DNA of 35,966 nucleotides, taken from assembly GCA_020629845.1 (NCBI GenBank), contig JAHDCQ010000017.1:1-35966 (forward strand), read 5' to 3'. Positions 3,734-32,428 of this stretch are shown piece after piece. Within the stretch, counting starts at the first letter, position 1. Each line of letters opens with the position of its first letter. The DNA is from Saprospiraceae bacterium. GTDB taxonomy: Bacteria; Bacteroidota; Bacteroidia; Chitinophagales; Saprospiraceae. The notes beneath the pieces are model-generated. The model made no database searches and had not been told where the DNA came from. It saw only the letters and a list, made by a program, of their open reading frames with translations. The translations under genes and the position numbers were made by a program.

Positions 3734-4408
3734 ATGAAAATTGCGCTTAAAACAATGTTATTGTTAGCAATGGTAGGATTCATGGCAGCTTGTAGTTCAG
3801 CAGGCGATGGTGAAAAAGTAGAGGCAAAAGAAGCAACAGAGGAAGCAGCAGCAGCTACCGCAGCAGCACAAACCTTCAATTTGGATACTGCTAATAGTGC
3901 TATTAATTGGAAAGGCATGAAAAAATTTGTAGGTGGCGAGCATACTGGAACGCTGTCACTTGCTGATGGTACGCTTTCGGTAGAAGGAGGCAACTTGGCA
4001 GCAGGAAAATTTACCATTGATATGGGATCTATGAAGAATACCGATATTGAAGATGAAGAAGGTGCGGGCCAACTCGTAGGTCACTTAGCTTCCCCTGATT
4101 TCTTTAACGTAGCTGAACATCCAACTGCTATGTTTGAAATTACGGGTGTGAAAGCCGTAGACGGGGACATGAAAGTAACGCACAATATTACAGGCAACCT
4201 AACGCTACTAGGTGTAACAAAGCAAGTAACTTTGCCTGCGAATGTAGCAGTTGCTGGTGGCAAATTGACGGCTACTACACCTGAGTTCAATATTGACCGT
4301 ACGCAATGGGGCATTAACTATGGTGGTGAAGGCATTGCAGATTTGGCAAAAGATAGAATCATCAGCCATGATATTACACTGCAAATCACATTGAACGCAG
4401 CGAGCTAA
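3734..4408 (+). CDS. YceI-like domain lipoprotein
   Basis: The product has 224 residues. Residues 1-20 are a lipoprotein signal with the lipobox MAAC (Cys20), so the protein is probably anchored in a membrane. A short Ala/Glu-rich linker (about 26-46) follows. The rest is a YceI-like domain: it opens with FNLDTANSAINWKGMK, contains the blocks GGEHTGTLSLADG and VGHLASPDFFNVAEHPTAMFEITG, and ends with DRTQWGINYGGEG before a basic/acidic tail. YceI proteins are lipocalin-like barrels that bind isoprenoid-type lipids; here that is inferred from family only. The gene stands alone between the regulator and a hairpin at 4427, with a 137-base leader region. The start is fixed by the lipoprotein signal. 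Confidence 0.93.
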   Translation: MKIALKTMLLLAMVGFMAACSSAGDGEKVEAKEATEEAAAATAAAQTFNLDTANSAINWKGMKKFVGGEHTGTLSLADGTLSVEGGNLAAGKFTIDMGSMKNTDIEDEEGAGQLVGHLASPDFFNVAEHPTAMFEITGVKAVDGDMKVTHNITGNLTLLGVTKQVTLPANVAVAGGKLTATTPEFNIDRTQWGINYGGEGIADLAKDRIISHDITLQITLNAAS

Positions 4409-4426
4409 AATAAGAACTGAATATTT

Positions 4427-4483
4427 AATGCTACAATGCGATAATACTACACAGTATTTTCCCTATTATCGCATTGTAGCATT
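4427..4483. repeat. Perfect 20-bp inverted repeat built from an iterated word
   Basis: Arms 4427-4446 and 4464-4483 are exact reverse complements (arm begins AATGCTACAATGCG) around a 17-base loop. The right arm runs on into a second copy of the word ATTGTAGC, so the words GCATTGTAGC and ATTGTAGCAT overlap in tandem. It starts 19 bases after the YceI gene. There is no T tract on either side, so it is not a classical intrinsic terminator, although it could protect the 3' end of the mRNA. Confidence 0.8.
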
Positions 4484-4680
4484 GTAGCATTATCACATTA
4501 AAATGATTCACTCCTTCACTCATTTTTTGCCAACATTGTGCAAGAGTTGGTGAGTAAGGTACTAAATATAGTGTAAATTAAAACAGCTTGAAAACCCAAT
4601 TTTTAGCTTCATTTTGAAACTTTTTTCTAAAAAATCGTCAAAGAGATTGTAACTGTTTTTTTTGATAAAGAATAGAGACA

Positions 4681-5358: not shown

Positions 5359-7800
5359 TCAATGTAAGTGCCGTATCAAGCAATCCATTAGCGATGCACG
5401 TTTAAAAGGTTTACTCAAATAACCATCAAACTTTGCTTGAAGTAAAGCATGAATATCTTCTTCCTGACTAATAGCAGTAAGTGCCACAATAGGAGTATCT
5501 ACTGCCTGTGCTTTTAGGTAATTCGCGACATCAATGCCATTCATTTGTGGTATTTGCACATCCATCAAAATCAAGTCAACTTCGGTATGCTGTTCAGCTA
5601 GTCGAATGGCTTCTTGTCCCGTTTTTGCTCGAATAATACGCGCCTCCAAAGGTTCTACTATTTTCTGAATGAGTTTAGCATTGAAATCTAGATCATCGGC
5701 TAATAAAATGGTCTTTCCTTTGAGGGATATATGCTTTCCATTCACCTCTGTTTTTGGAGTAGGAGCTTTATTTGGCATCACTTCATAAGGGAGACTAAAG
5801 TAAAAGGTAGTGCCTTTATGTTCTTCGGACTCAAAGTAAATATCTCCCTCCAATAGCGAAGTCAAACCCTTTGATATGGACAGCCCCAAGCCTGTGCCGT
5901 CATAAGTTCGTGCATAACCTATTTCCGCTTGCTGAAAACGTTCAAATACGAACTCTTTTTTATCATCAGGAATCCCGACTCCGGTATCTTTTATTGTAAA
6001 AATCAAACTATCTTTCTGAAGATGACAGGATAATTCTACCTTGCCTTGTTTTGTGAATTTAATGGCATTACTGAGCAAATTAGTTAGCACCTGTCGTACT
6101 TTTTTCTTATCCGAAAACACAAGCAAATCTGACGCAATAACATCAGGATGCAATAGAAGTTCAATACCTTTTTCTTGAGCAACTGGATAAAACAATACGT
6201 AGAGTTGACGCATAAAAGGTAGCAATTGAAAATGCTCCTTCTGCACCTTGACTGTGCCTGTTTCTATTTTAGCAATATCCAGTAAATCATCCACAATTTG
6301 CATAAGATGCTGACAATTATCATTGATGATATTGGCGTATTCATGCTTTTCATATTCTTCGGTATCGGGCGAGAGCATGAGTTCTGAAAAGCCTAAAATA
6401 CCATTCATAGGTGTTCGGATTTCATGCGATATATTTGCGATGAATGCAGATTTTAGACGGTCACTTTCTTGGGCTTTATACAATAGGTTCTTCATCTGCA
6501 TTTGTTGTTCTTTTCGGCGAGTTACATTTTTGATTACAAGCATACTACCAAATATGTTGCCACGCTTATCTCTAGCGGGCGCATGTACAAATTTGAAATA
6601 GTAATCCTTTTTTTTATGAGATATTTTTGATTCTACTGCAGTTGTTTTCCCTAATTGAGCATCAGCGATTAATGCATTATGGTCGTCTATATACTCTTTA
6701 GGTACATAATCTTCAATTAAGGCATTGGGCTGTAATTCTTTATCCAAAAGTAATCGGAATGTATATTCTGATATTTTATTAAAGGCTACTAGCCGCTTCG
6801 TTTTATCAAATGCCAGAATACCATCCAAAGTACTATCAAATACCCCATTTAGTATAGCAGCTTGCCTGTTAAGTAGTAGACTATTCCGCATTTTTTCACT
6901 TACATCAATGCCTACTCCCAAAACGCCTATCAACTCTTGTTTACCATCAAAAAATGGTGTTTTGGTAAAATCAAGCCAGTATTCTTTCCCTGCTTTTTCT
7001 ATTAAAATATTCTCTACGCGTACTTCTTCTAAATTTTGCATCACTTGCTTATCATCAGCTTGGAAAGACGTACTAGAGGTCGTCATTAGCTCCTCTAGTT
7101 TTTTCCCCTTACATGCTTCTACACTTAGCCCTACAAATTGTGCAAAGGCTTCATTTACTGAAATAATTTTACCCGATAGATTTTGAATAAAAATAAGACT
7201 GGAATTAGCTTTAGCTACGCGTTGCATCACAAAGTCAGCTGTAGAAATGCTTTGTTCGTATTTTTCCTTTGCAAAGTTATGTGCCAGATGCACCGATAAA
7301 ATACTCACTAAGCCAACAATACCCAATATCACTTCTAGCAGCACACGCTCTGTCGGGCTATGATAGGTGAGTGAAAAATCTAAACTATTGCAATAAAATA
7401 ATATGCCTATACTCAATATGAACATGATGGTATTAAACCACTTCAATAATTTGCTATTAGCGATATGAGCAACCATAAAATGGATACCTGTCATAGAAAA
7501 AATAGTGCCATAGTAAATTGGCCCTGAAAAAATTGGGATAGTAGCTAATTGAGCATAGTAAGTGAAGATAACTATAAATAAGGCAATAGTTAGATAACCA
7601 TTTAAAGCTAAAGAGATAGTGAATGCAATAATAGCTAAAGCAATAAACTCTGCATAAGTCCCAGAAAGATTTTGTTGTATGAGGACATCATACAAACCTA
7701 GAATAGCAATTGCAATAAAAAAAGAAAATTGGATATATATAAAAAACCGTACCTTATCTCTAAGGTCAGTATTTCCATACCTCATTAGCTTATTCAACAT
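5359..7800 (-). CDS. Membrane-bound PAS hybrid sensor histidine kinase with receiver domain
   Basis: The product has 813 residues. Five or six hydrophobic helices occupy about 20-175 (membrane sensor region without a large outside loop). Two PAS/PAC units follow, about 190-300 (ending IGVLGVGIDVSEKMR) and 310-430 (ending GSMLVIKNVTRRKEQ). The HisKA dimerisation helix carries the phosphorylated His459 in NISHEIRTPMNG. The ATPase domain shows the N box near 574-582 (NLLSNAIKF), DTGVGI at 605-610 and GTGLGL at 635-640. A receiver domain closes the protein (about 695-813) with acidic pair D702-D703, phosphoacceptor D747 (LILMDVQIPQMNG) and Lys797. The kinase can therefore pass phosphate within itself and needs an external Hpt or regulator as output; none is adjacent. 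The gene is monocistronic with a 475-base upstream region. Confidence 0.95.
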   Translation of the reverse strand: MLNKLMRYGNTDLRDKVRFFIYIQFSFFIAIAILGLYDVLIQQNLSGTYAEFIALAIIAFTISLALNGYLTIALFIVIFTYYAQLATIPIFSGPIYYGTIFSMTGIHFMVAHIANSKLLKWFNTIMFILSIGILFYCNSLDFSLTYHSPTERVLLEVILGIVGLVSILSVHLAHNFAKEKYEQSISTADFVMQRVAKANSSLIFIQNLSGKIISVNEAFAQFVGLSVEACKGKKLEELMTTSSTSFQADDKQVMQNLEEVRVENILIEKAGKEYWLDFTKTPFFDGKQELIGVLGVGIDVSEKMRNSLLLNRQAAILNGVFDSTLDGILAFDKTKRLVAFNKISEYTFRLLLDKELQPNALIEDYVPKEYIDDHNALIADAQLGKTTAVESKISHKKKDYYFKFVHAPARDKRGNIFGSMLVIKNVTRRKEQQMQMKNLLYKAQESDRLKSAFIANISHEIRTPMNGILGFSELMLSPDTEEYEKHEYANIINDNCQHLMQIVDDLLDIAKIETGTVKVQKEHFQLLPFMRQLYVLFYPVAQEKGIELLLHPDVIASDLLVFSDKKKVRQVLTNLLSNAIKFTKQGKVELSCHLQKDSLIFTIKDTGVGIPDDKKEFVFERFQQAEIGYARTYDGTGLGLSISKGLTSLLEGDIYFESEEHKGTTFYFSLPYEVMPNKAPTPKTEVNGKHISLKGKTILLADDLDFNAKLIQKIVEPLEARIIRAKTGQEAIRLAEQHTEVDLILMDVQIPQMNGIDVANYLKAQAVDTPIVALTAISQEEDIHALLQAKFDGYLSKPFKRASLMDCLIRHLH

Positions 7801-18218: not shown

Positions 18219-18459
18219 AATGCTTTGGATAAGGAATGAAGAATTAATTAAATGAGCCGTTTTCATTCCTAACTGGACTTTGGACAAAGTCCTAGTCTTT
18301 GGTAAATTGGTCTTTAGTCTTTAGCGTGTTCAGAAAATTGAATTTTATCAAATCTGAATTCCAGTACTTTACACATTAGATTCATCTATATACTAAAGAC
18401 CAAAGACTAAAAAGCTAAAGACCTAGACTTTTGTCCAAAGTCTAGATTCCTAAAGCATT
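18219..18459. repeat. Large nested inverted repeat, GTCTTTAG word family, copy 1
   Basis: The core arms 18273-18325 and 18393-18445 are imperfect reverse complements made of iterations of GTCTTTAG / GTCTTTGG. Each outer arm also folds locally: GGACTTT-GGAC-AAAGTCC on the left and AGACTTT-TGTCC-AAAGTCT on the right. The pairing extends outward through AATGCTTT (18219) and the matching AAAGCATT (18452-18459); on the left this is interrupted by another perfect hairpin, AGGAATGAA (18232-18240) with TTCATTCCT (18262-18270). It lies in the divergent region between the genes at 15868 and 18764. A second copy is at 24247 in the opposite orientation. Confidence 0.85.
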
Positions 18460-21669: not shown

Positions 21670-22410
21670 ATGATGGAAACATCCTTTATAGTAGAAAATA
21701 ATGCTTTTATGCGATTTGGATATTCGCATCTTGGCACTTTAGCTCTTCTTTTCCTTCTGGGTTTCCTAATGATCTTTGTGGCACGGCGGTTTCTGACTAA
21801 GGGACAGCAAATTATGCTCGCTAATATGGTAGCAGGCTTCATGTGCCTTGTGGTCATCATTTGGACAATCATAAAAGCACAATTAGGTATCTTTACGATA
21901 GATAAACATCTGCCCTTTGACCTCTGCAACTTCATGGGGGTTACTGCCATTATACTCACCCTCACGCGTAGCTATCGGATGTATGAGGTCTACTATTTCT
22001 GGATTTTAGCTGGAACACTACAAGCACTCATTACGCCTGACTTACCTAACGACTTTCCGCACTATACCTTCTGGAAGTATTGGGTGGTACATGGGGGCTT
22101 AGTTATCGTTATTCTGTATATGACTTTTGTATTTGATATGCGCCCAACTTTGAAAAGTATTTGGCGAAGTTTTCTATGGTTGCAGGTGTTTTTCGTGTCT
22201 CTATTATTAGTCAATTATTTAACTGGCTCTAACTATGGCTATCTAAATGCAAAACCAGAAACAGCTTCTTTGCTCGATTATATGCCCGAATGGCCCTACT
22301 ATCTGCTTACAGGACAGATGATTGTGCTGCCGCTTATGTTTTTAGTATATAGTCCCTGGTTAATAAAAGATTGGCGAGATAAGAAAAGAAAGATTGCAAC
22401 TATTCAGTAG
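21670..22410 (+). CDS. YwaF/TIGR02206-family integral membrane protein
   Basis: The frame can start at a GTG at 21640, but the ATG pair at 21670/21673 (MMETSFIVENNAFMRFGYSHLG) is preferred because the upstream residues are basic and unlike the family. About seven membrane helices span the 246 residues. Family landmarks are LPFDLCNFMG, YYFWILAGTLQALITPDLPNDFPHYTF, a HGG in the next helix, RPTLKSIWRSF, LLVNYLTGSNYGYL and KPETASLLDYMPEWPYY. The function of the family is not established; no substrate can be inferred. The gene is preceded by a promoter-like pair at 21580 and its last codons form part of the inverted repeat that follows. Confidence 0.88.
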   Translation: MMETSFIVENNAFMRFGYSHLGTLALLFLLGFLMIFVARRFLTKGQQIMLANMVAGFMCLVVIIWTIIKAQLGIFTIDKHLPFDLCNFMGVTAIILTLTRSYRMYEVYYFWILAGTLQALITPDLPNDFPHYTFWKYWVVHGGLVIVILYMTFVFDMRPTLKSIWRSFLWLQVFFVSLLLVNYLTGSNYGYLNAKPETASLLDYMPEWPYYLLTGQMIVLPLMFLVYSPWLIKDWRDKKRKIATIQ

Positions 22411-22526
22411 AACAGAGAGCAGAGACCGTTTCACTGTGAGAACAGAGACAAGGATGATGAAAAAGTCGTATTTTAAGTCTCTATTCTCTCAACAAAGTGG
22501 TCTCTGCTCTCTCTTCTGAATAATTA
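22401..22526. repeat. Long imperfect inverted repeat overlapping a stop codon
   Basis: Arms 22414-22449 and 22477-22512 pair over 36 bases with about eight mismatches; the first 14 bases (AGAGAGCAGAGACC) are exact. The pairing continues outward with small gaps so that TATTCAG at 22401 pairs with CTGAATA near 22516, which takes the stop codon of the YwaF-like gene (22408-22410) into the structure. The arms consist of reiterated AGAGAC/GAGAAC words, the same design as the repeats at 18219 and 24247 but with a different word. Confidence 0.75.
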
Positions 22527-24246: not shown

Positions 24247-24321
24247 TAGGTCTTTAGCGTTTAGTCTTTGGTCTTTAGCACGAAAGATTCTAAAGACTAA
24301 AGACCAATTTCCTAAAGACTA
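24247..24321. repeat. Inverted repeat, GTCTTTAG word family, copy 2
   Basis: Arms 24247-24278 and 24290-24321 are imperfect reverse complements around an 11-base loop. Each arm is three to four iterations of GTCTTTAG/GTCTTTGG. Arm by arm it matches the reverse complement of the core at 18283-18435, including the interruption AATTGG in one arm and AGC in the other, so the two are copies of one repeat in opposite orientation. It begins 15 bases upstream of the ATG at 24231. Confidence 0.85.
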
Positions 24322-24403
24322 AGCTAGTCAGAGTGGAAAGATACTACTATTCCTGTGGGCTTGCAATTTTTTGAGAATTCATTAACGCAGACTTTGTCTG
24401 ACA

Positions 24404-30469: not shown

Positions 30470-31174
30470 CTATAATAAAGACAAATAATGCGGAAACATC
30501 TCGCGCCAAAGTGGCCAATCGTGTTCAACCCAGCCGCGTATATCCAACCAATGATCTACCTGCTTTTCTTTCAAAATTTTAGACATTTCAAAGTTGAATT
30601 CCTTACAAATATCCCATTCCGATGTACCTAGCACGATTTTCATCTTCCATAAATCAGGATGATTCATGCCTGGTACAAAATCCACAGGATTATTGAAGTA
30701 GACATTGTCATCATAGTGACCGTCTAAGAAAGACTTGATATTGAACGAGCCACTCATGGAAAGCAAATGACTCACCCGATCGGGGTATCGGAAAGCAAAA
30801 TTACCCGCCATATAGCCCCCAAAACTTGGCCCAGCCACGCACACCTTGCCCGAAGGCGTATTGAAGCGCACTTTATCCACTACTTCCTCCAAAATCATTT
30901 TATCATACCACGTATGATTTTTTACTCGAACAGAAGGATGTACTTTTTTGTTGTACCAACTATGGTCATTAATGGCATCAACGCAATAAATTTGCACCTT
31001 GCCCTGCTCCACAAAATGACGCGCTGATTCTACGAGTTTCATATCCTTGCACTCGTAATAGCTGCCAAGTGTGGTAGGGAATAAAATAAGGGGGTAGCCA
31101 CTATCGCCAAACACCAGCATTTGGGTGTCCATGCTGAGGTTATGCGAGTACCATTTATAATGTCGTTCTGTCAC
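30470..31174 (-). CDS. Alpha/beta-hydrolase esterase (esterase D-like)
   Basis: The product has 234 residues, no signal peptide, and so is cytoplasmic. The nucleophile elbow is GPSFGGY with Ser117. Candidate catalytic partners are Asp188 (SEWDICKEF) and His218 (WVEHDWPLWREMFPHYL). The N-terminus (YKWYSHNLSMDTQMLVFGDSGYPLILFPT) and the HDWPLWREMFPHYL end are typical of a family of esterases related to the putative esterase/FrsA-like group. The substrate is unknown. On the minus strand a TACTTTTG match to the TAnnTTTG element occurs at 31231-31224, 50 bases before the ATG, without a clear -33 box. A strong hairpin follows the gene. Confidence 0.9.
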   Translation of the reverse strand: MTERHYKWYSHNLSMDTQMLVFGDSGYPLILFPTTLGSYYECKDMKLVESARHFVEQGKVQIYCVDAINDHSWYNKKVHPSVRVKNHTWYDKMILEEVVDKVRFNTPSGKVCVAGPSFGGYMAGNFAFRYPDRVSHLLSMSGSFNIKSFLDGHYDDNVYFNNPVDFVPGMNHPDLWKMKIVLGTSEWDICKEFNFEMSKILKEKQVDHWLDIRGWVEHDWPLWREMFPHYLSLL

Positions 31175-31376: not shown

Positions 31377-31545
31377 TTAAGTAATCAGACAAAAATAAGC
31401 TGACAACTAATTGGATGCAGTTTTTATCTGAATTGAGGCGCAAAAAATGGAGTTATGCCTTCGCATAGTGATAGTTTTTGCAACGAAAAGTCAGGTAAAA
31501 AGAGCTTTCAAGGAGTTGTTAAATTATTTTTGTCTGATTACTTAA
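31377..31545. mobile_element. MITE-like element with terminal inverted repeats
   Basis: The ends 31377-31398 and 31524-31545 are perfect 22-bp inverted repeats (outer bases TTAAGTAATCAGAC). With a few mismatches the pairing continues inward for the whole length to the centre ATGC-CTTC-GCAT near 31453-31464, so the 169 bases form one long foldback. TAC flanks both sides directly (31374-31376 and 31546-31548), consistent with a 3-bp target duplication. It has no coding capacity, so it would need a transposase in trans. Both ends contain TATTTTTG reading outward, a perfect match to the TAnnTTTG promoter element, although no -33 box is evident. It sits between the divergent esterase genes; the flanking bases 31175-31376 and 31546-31612 hold no gene. 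Confidence 0.75.
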
Positions 31546-31612
31546 TACTTTGTACCTTATACATAATACCCATATCTTGATATGGATTTGCTATGAAATA
31601 AAACTTTACATT

Positions 31613-32428
31613 TTGGAACAAGAAGCATCACAAACAGTTACCACTATCGAACAATTTACACATTACCACCAGTCCGCTTTTCTGCAACGCGAAGTACGTA
31701 TAGATGTCTACACTCCTAGCGATTATGCCGAAAATAACAAGACCTACCCTATTGTCTACTTCAATGATGGGCAAGATATGGAAGCCGTACGCCTTGTCAG
31801 TACGCTCGAAGAGTTGATGGATAAGGAGGAGATTCCGCCTATTATTGTGGCAGCCATTCACGCCAATCACGATCGCATACATGAATATGGTACTAGCCGA
31901 CAAGCAGACTACAAAGGACGTGGCGGACGTGCAGACTTATACAGTCGCTTTGTGATGGAAGAACTCTTGTGCTTTACCCAGCAGCACTATCGTATCGCGC
32001 CAGAGTTGGATAAGCGTATTTTTGCGGGCTTCTCCTTAGGAGGCTTAATGGCCTTCGATTTGGTGTGGAACAATGCCGCACATTTCGGAAAAGTTGGCGT
32101 TTTTTCAGGTTCATTTTGGTGGCGTTCTGCGCCAGTACCCCCACACGACCCTGATGCCCATCGGATTATGCACGATATTTTGTATCAAAGCCGCAAGCAA
32201 GATGGGCTAAAATTTTGGCTACAAACGGGTACTGAAGACGAAAAAGAAGACCGCAACAACAATGGCGTGATTGACTCCATTGATGATACCCTCGATATTA
32301 TTCGCGCCCTACGGCACTTAGGCTATGAACAGCAAGATGTACATTATGTAGAAGTGGGCGGCGGACACCATCATCCGAAGACTTGGGGTTTGGTACTACC
32401 TGATTTTTTGAAGTGGTGCTTGAATTGA
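31613..32428 (+). CDS. Putative esterase of the Fes/S-formylglutathione hydrolase fold (PF00756 type)
   Basis: The frame is open from 31550, but the first 21 residues are unlike the family and begin right beside the mobile element; TTG at 31613 (MEQEASQTVTT) is the likely start, giving 271 residues. There is no signal peptide. The nucleophile is Ser141 in FAGFSLGGLMAFD; His252-254 in VGGGHHHPKTWG supplies the catalytic histidine. An EF-hand-like loop DRNNNGVIDSID at 213-224, between the sixth and seventh core segments, may bind calcium. The family hydrolyses esters of siderophores, sugars or thioesters; the substrate here is unknown. The gene is divergent from the other esterase. The TTG start and the neighbouring insertion suggest that its original leader may have been changed. 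Confidence 0.88.
   Translation: MEQEASQTVTTIEQFTHYHQSAFLQREVRIDVYTPSDYAENNKTYPIVYFNDGQDMEAVRLVSTLEELMDKEEIPPIIVAAIHANHDRIHEYGTSRQADYKGRGGRADLYSRFVMEELLCFTQQHYRIAPELDKRIFAGFSLGGLMAFDLVWNNAAHFGKVGVFSGSFWWRSAPVPPHDPDAHRIMHDILYQSRKQDGLKFWLQTGTEDEKEDRNNNGVIDSIDDTLDIIRALRHLGYEQQDVHYVEVGGGHHHPKTWGLVLPDFLKWCLN

Follow-up and report, generated by a model that had tools for sequence, protein, structure and literature searches.

Foldback miniature elements with unrelated ends share a conserved centre, predicted to fold as RNA, in the Saprospiraceae

Short, non-coding, AT-rich sequences present in many copies, with inverted ends, a target duplication and a transcript predicted to fold, are described as MITEs in the part of a review drawn on here (PMC10969869), and the element reported below resembles them in all these features. 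It differs in that the centre, not the ends, is common to a bacterial family and is held as a structure. The BOX, RUP and SPRITE repeats of pneumococcus are likewise interspersed and mobile-looking and have predicted RNA folds, and the excerpted text proposes that RUP is moved in trans by IS630-Spn1 (PMC3049150). They are set apart by description, since here one fold is found with several unrelated end types in many genera; moreover, the same excerpt places the pneumococcal repeats in excess between convergent genes, whereas 6 of our 77 elements lie in such a gap (crude ORF caller). MRSC-65-2 and similar mobile or repeat candidates are also multicopy structured motifs without a fixed orientation to genes, and are taken as selfish in the excerpt of their description (PMC11109978). 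However, MRSC-65-2 consists of a UYCCGG repeat and spans phyla, while the core described here is nearly restricted to one family, which sets the two apart by description. MITECca01 of Cardinium is likewise a high-copy, mostly intergenic MITE of the Bacteroidota; it is about 240 bp long, derived from IS982 and, as stated in the portion of the report cited, not found in other sequenced Cardinium strains (PMC9769881). The elements reported for Candidatus Thiomargarita (PMC4853749) and the REP sequences (PMC3733652), as they appear in the excerpts compared, are different ones. No description of the core was found in the open-access literature searched or in Rfam 15, ISfinder and subscription journals lying outside that scope.

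The window, that is, the whole stretch of DNA analysed, comprises 35,966 nucleotides from a bacterium of the Saprospiraceae, a family of environmental bacteria. Its own genome is a draft of 5.88 Mb in 594 contigs, 91% complete. A first-pass annotation made from the letters alone had described a foldback MITE, and in this it was right: the element is multicopy with constant boundaries, one copy is nested, and it is missing from the orthologous gap of a same-genus genome. Its perfect 22-bp inverted ends (Table 1), the near-complete foldback to the tip CTTC within a central ATGC-CTTC-GCAT, and the location of the element between two divergent ORFs (30470-31174 on the minus strand, 31550-32428 on the plus strand) could all be read as claimed, as could an outward TATTTTTG at both element ends. 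At 163-169 bp and with no inner ORF of 80 aa or longer, the element has the size (50-500 bp) and the non-coding character of a MITE. As single-stranded DNA, positions 31360-31560 fold at -39.1 kcal/mol, compared with -15.9 +/- 2.95 for 200 shuffles (z -7.9; 0/200 shuffles as good), and the two element ends are the sole matches within the window to a 19-base end pattern with up to 3 mismatches.

Table 1. Features of the window copy, in window coordinates, with the basis of each assignment.
Feature	Position	Strand	Basis
Left TA, target dinucleotide (duplicated)	31378..31379		TA at both ends in 12/13 full-length copies
Element proper, 163 bp, AGTAATCAG...CTGATTACT	31380..31542	+	boundaries constant over full copies, flanks unrelated
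Right TA, target dinucleotide	31543..31544		TA at both ends in 12/13 full-length copies
Left terminal inverted repeat, as drawn in the first-pass annotation	31377..31398	+	sequence, end-pattern search
Right terminal inverted repeat	31524..31545	-	sequence, end-pattern search
Conserved RNA-like core (R1)	31415..31503	+	27 pairs, 26 with changes on both sides, 102 distinct sequences
Outer core helix, 5' side, partner about 31491-31501	31421..31431	+	RNAalifold, covariation
AGGC, 5' side of outer internal loop	31436..31439	+	A 1.73, G 1.35 and 1.34, C 1.40 bits
Inner helix GCAAAAA, partner 31475-31481	31440..31446	+	RNAalifold, covariation
GGA, 5' side of GGA/GA internal loop	31449..31451	+	1.5-1.7 bits, 102 sequences
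Apical hairpin GTTATGC-CTTC-GCATAGT	31452..31469	+	tip variable, stem covarying
GA, 3' side of GGA/GA internal loop	31470..31471	+	1.7 bits
AACGAAA, 3' side of outer internal loop	31482..31488	+	first two A 1.73 and 1.64 bits, next positions 1.05-1.52

Other repeats are present in the window. Positions 22409-22517 form a 109-bp imperfect inverted repeat with 41-bp arms (80%), CTCTGTTCTC-like; such a sequence also stands beside an end match in another contig (L071, C352) and may represent another interspersed foldback family. Repeated stretches CTAAAGACCAAAGACTAAA and CTGGACTTTGGACAAAGTCC occur at 18273-18445 and 24260-24322, and sequence resembling them adjoins copies of the element in C478 (L015), C321 (L004) and C85 (L044). 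At 4426-4492, just downstream of an ORF ending at 4408, a hairpin with perfect 20-bp arms, AATGCTACAATGCGATAATA, accompanied by another partial copy, resembles a terminator or a small repeat.

A search of the own genome with the window element returned 2 partial copies and 13 full-length ones; the 12 full-length copies outside the window are 85-99% identical to the window copy. A single-end pattern with up to 3 mismatches matched 50 places as opposed to 6 for its reversed control. The copies agree from TAAGTA to TACTTA and outside these limits the flanks are unrelated; all full copies except that on C87 have TA on both sides of the 163-bp element. The TAC duplication proposed from the window copy does not stand, given that TAC flanks this copy alone (1/13) and the 12 others have no equal triplets, whether in the frame first drawn (by eye) or directly outside the TA. 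For the window type, TA fits as the target site duplication. The elements have inserted in multiple copies, with constant boundaries and with TA or, in a relative described below, TNA flanks as left by target duplication. The C87 copy is nested in another foldback, and uninterrupted copies of the latter on C413 and C276 keep the same spacing there (by eye); to within one base, this is what an insertion that duplicated TA should leave.

The interrupted foldback belongs to another family (L101 on C413, L102 on C276, L010 on C87), with ends GAGCATGTTTGG and without the R1 core; it has its own apical hairpin and a strong folding strand asymmetry, perhaps a second structured centre. Copies of different subfamilies, L002 (C157:101-268) and L012 (C376:3394-3561), lie at the same point of an AT-rich foldback, AATGAGTGAAT..., which also adjoins the truncated copy in L015; either the target is shared or a nested arrangement was co-amplified. 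Relatives whose ends are of this kind but which lack the core include two of 31 bp (C573, C561), one of 125 bp (C85) and one of 162 bp (C572), and all four are absent from the 105 matches of the core model in the own genome. The two 31-bp elements occupy separate TA sites, and so the ends alone seem enough for movement, provided that the 31-bp copies spread as such. These smallest elements read AAGTAGTCAGACAAAAATRAGATGACTACTT, with T before and A after (C573 near 36247-36266, L042; C561 near 5556-5575, L052).

In a genome of the same genus, G002, the right-hand esterase has an ortholog 85% identical, and its orthologous gap aligns on both sides and is without the window element (by eye). Since these flanks align and the element is absent, the alignment implies that the window element is an insertion younger than the split from G002, or a replacement, or was lost in G002. 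In its place the G002 gap contains another core-bearing element, whose ends read GGGAGCAGATAAGAAATAA...TTATTTTTTATCTGTTCCC, with TTA on both sides (by eye). That this element (L360, G002:C350) lies upstream of the esterase ortholog in the same orientation, with other ends, may be coincidence or reflect a preferred site. Just upstream of the esterase, and beyond the limits of the window element, the window and G002 share a short conserved stretch (by eye). A third genome, G001, aligned in pieces only, within the left-hand gene.

What the first-pass annotation did not notice is the principal feature, a centre whose structure is conserved well outside the end type of the window. A DNA search in 60 relatives gave matches in 4, own genome included, and in two other genera (G021 and G006) the middle alone was matched, inside repeats with different ends. 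RNAalifold on 21 sequences from four genomes returned 27 pairs, 15 of them with two-sided changes. A covariance model, R1, was built from the centre, the window sequence being part of the training set, and it matches the window core at 100 bits (E 2.7e-21, own genome). At E up to 0.01, R1 has 105 matches in the own genome and 68 in G150, a relative assembled in four contigs; within the family it is found in 153 of 298 genomes and 74 of 112 genera, with at most 14 candidates scored per genome. Over the phylum it is found in 7 of 395 genomes, namely the own genome, two others of the Saprospiraceae and four of one other family in the class, the last four with weak matches (E 1.7e-8 to 4.5e-4). 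An exact hairpin pattern occurs in at least 118 stretches of GTDB genomes, and among the 80 matches listed 78 are titled Saprospiraceae, one Lewinella cohaerens and one Chitinophagales; exact matches of one hairpin pattern numbered 0 in the viral collection. Two of three same-genus genomes are without the core, which makes its presence patchy. Rfam at the gathering threshold had no match in the whole window, and at five chosen loci (E<=1) it returned one tRNA and four sub-threshold miRNA matches, all outside the elements.

Around this centre the ends are of unrelated types: AAGTARTCAGACAAAAATAA (window), AAGTACTTGGACAAAATTAT, GAGCATGTTTAAA, GAAGCTGTTTGAAAG, GGGAACAAGAAAAAAATAGG, GGGACGAGGAAAAAAATAAAC, AGACTTTATTCACAAA and AGTGCTCCGCGCAAGAAATAA, the automatic end calls being wrong or missing for some of the 104 rows. 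Among 15 representatives, chosen by hand along with their end types, pairs with different ends (n=86) share an inner identity of 0.69, as against a shuffled mean of 0.56 and a 95% level of 0.62, and their arms share 0.55 and 0.54 (shuffled 0.55). Pairs with the same ends (n=19) reach 0.72 in the inner part and 0.69 and 0.67 in the arms. In G150, inner identity is at least 0.96 in 118 of 465 pairs, and in 26 of these 118 both arms fall below the shuffled 95% level. Had the arms simply changed fast, the cores would not have been left near-identical; to judge from these identities, the module has been exchanged between elements with different arms or homogenised across them. Identical 3-bp flanks border 12 of 19 G150 elements with assigned ends, 11 of the 12 being TNA (ends were assigned in 19 of 30 loci, wrongly at L190, where TTA is seen by eye on both sides).

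As to the transposase that would move these elements, G150 carries a gene for a 256-aa IS5-family transposase in four copies (NF033580, 161 bits at a cut-off of 110). One IS5 copy, read at both ends, runs GAGTATGTTC..GAACATACTC between TAA and TAA, like the core-bearing miniatures of the same genome, and the shared ends make the IS5-family transposase the likely partner of the GAG..TGTT type in G150, one end type only and not that of the window. Among 19 chosen genomes, IS5-type transposases were detected in three (G129, G264 and G308) and the own draft genome had none. The elements of G264 and G308 end in GAACGTGTTTAAAAATT and GAAGCTGTTTTAAAAT and were set aside as parents because these ends differ from those of the core-bearing elements seen in the two genomes; the best IS5-type match of G129 was set aside for want of clear inverted ends. 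Derivation from an IS630/Tc1 parent finds no counterpart in the own draft genome, which at 91% completeness has 0 DDE_3 domains, and the two PF01609 (DDE_Tnp_1) matches there have other ends than the window's, or none. The full-length insertion sequence with the window's ends, for which a search had been advised, did not appear in the own draft genome (594 contigs; DDE_3, DDE_Tnp_1 and IS5-type searched). A multicopy IS is easily lost from such a 594-contig draft.

Alignment A4 holds 102 distinct sequences from 100 loci picked by hand from about 321, some overlapping; 54 of the loci came from the exact hairpin pattern, some hold training sequences, and one row is a weak match on the opposite strand of an element. 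Given this choice of loci and an alignment fitted to the model, the counts lean towards structure, and as the sequences are related the counts are non-independent and serve as support, not as probabilities. We find that 96.3% of the cells are paired, with two-sided changes in 26 of 27 pairs. Covariation is 0.577, as opposed to 0.163 +/- 0.007 in shuffled alignments (0/500 as high) and 0.061-0.115 with slid partners, so that compensatory change of the kind expected of a structured RNA exceeds the shuffles in this model-fitted alignment. The key loop bases mostly carry 1.3-1.7 bits and many stem positions 0.15-0.5 bits. Among the least variable positions are the A and the GC of AGGC, the GGA, the GA and the AA; the loop-closing C-G pair and the A-U run of the inner helix are conserved as strongly as the loops, and some unpaired core positions vary freely. 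A kink-turn and a dif-like site were each considered for the internal loops and dropped on inspection.

Leaving out one fixed G-U pair, G-U cells number 187 and A-C cells 22; by pair, 19 lean towards G-U (the fixed one included), 2 towards A-C and 6 tie. A symmetric count beyond the inner loops gives, after de-duplication, 126 G-U to 55 A-C. The innermost zone is reversed, with 75 A-C to 34 G-U, and in zone 37-46 the two counts almost balance (28 to 26); we put the innermost excess of A-C down to the conserved loop, which would there be read as stem. Compensatory changes maintain the structure, with G-U pairs preferred to A-C. In 99 of 102 sequences the predicted fold is more stable on the module strand than on the complementary one (means -28.4 and -20.6). 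This asymmetry is not special to the R1 core, since core-less foldbacks show similar strand energies (-67.1/-56.1 and -71.7/-53.4, and -60.6/-48.1 for the 162-bp element); it is similar in 3 of 4 core-less elements and absent in one, and in another inverted repeat of the window it was not found. Together, covariation, nearly fixed loop bases, the excess of G-U over A-C and the strand preference point to selection on a putative RNA.

The reading we favour, and consider probable, is that these elements are non-autonomous DDE-type transposons, moved in trans, which carry a conserved predicted RNA as a passenger. A DDE-type transposase, putative for the window's end type, would read the inverted ends and insert the MITE at TA, acting in trans. 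The centre would be a structured RNA module on the strand shown, presumably transcribed, whose shape selection would keep as an RNA fold, and in the Saprospiraceae the same module is carried by miniatures with several unrelated kinds of ends. Going one step further, the module may be a passenger RNA that works for the element or for a common host factor; that the core seems dispensable in cis, as the two 31-bp elements with the same ends suggest, agrees with such a role. A fixed UTR role is spoken against by the genes around the elements. Their orientation varies (for 77 elements, +E+ 16, -E- 18, -E+ 18 and +E- 6; crude ORF caller), and among 345 ORFs no neighbour gene recurs beyond a repeat-rich cluster (7 loci) and one cluster of 3 loci; in one set, an arm-pairing score of at least 35 was required, which kept 84 elements. 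Varied orientation and the want of a partner gene argue for a function that benefits the element itself or depends on a common factor.

Tentatively, one may instead see the module as a mobile RNA gene that has no transposon to itself and either works in trans or is a ligand of a common cell protein; it would have been packaged between the ends of several unrelated DNA transposons and so spread through the Saprospiraceae; the ends would then be interchangeable carriers and the RNA the unit of selection. It is rather unlikely, in our judgement, that the elements are ordinary MITEs, their arms complementary as in all foldbacks and kept so by hairpin-templated repair, with a centre that reflects functionless common descent. 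Repair to symmetry should erase asymmetric loops, yet the loops are among the most conserved bases, and it should leave G-U and A-C equal, yet they are unequal. The arms, moreover, are unrelated across end types while the centre is still alignable, and within one genome near-identical cores lie between arms at shuffled similarity (26/118 high-identity pairs). What speaks for such an origin is that core-less foldbacks are strand-asymmetric too, that recurring neighbour families are confined to the two clusters mentioned, that 4 of 77 elements fall inside an ORF and orientation to genes is unsteady (crude ORF caller), and that MITEs, in the excerpt cited, commonly fold back (PMC10969869).

Still less probably, the fold would work at the DNA level, with a recombinase or a host nuclease recognising the extruded hairpin. 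Single-stranded hairpins guide several mobile elements, and the ends are symmetric around the hairpin here; wobble pairs, however, are tolerated for one strand only (19 columns to 2), and the energy gap between the strands fits RNA better than either DNA strand. For another mobile motif, the excerpted report allows that structure may matter as DNA (PMC11109978). Very improbable, finally, is the portable promoter or regulatory island that the first-pass annotation proposed as giving both esterases start sites, for although TATTTTTG, presumably a -7 promoter motif, points outward at both ends, the window copy lies between divergent ORFs and -E+ exceeds +E- by 18 to 6 (raw counts of a crude ORF caller, regardless of gap frequency), the exact string is tied to the window end type and absent from GAG..TGTT ends, with T-rich near-matches in some other end types (by eye), and the conserved stretch upstream of the esterase lies outside the element and is kept by G002 without the window element (by eye), which does not favour the promoter idea.

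What defines a MITE is its pair of ends, and the sequence between them is usually regarded as decayed. In the present elements it is the interior that is conserved, as a one-strand fold which is found across a bacterial family between unrelated ends, a single genome having as many as about a hundred copies. If the RNA is real, these elements would serve as a test case for the spread of RNAs carried along by transposons, and the core would offer a defined structure with which to search for a partner protein.
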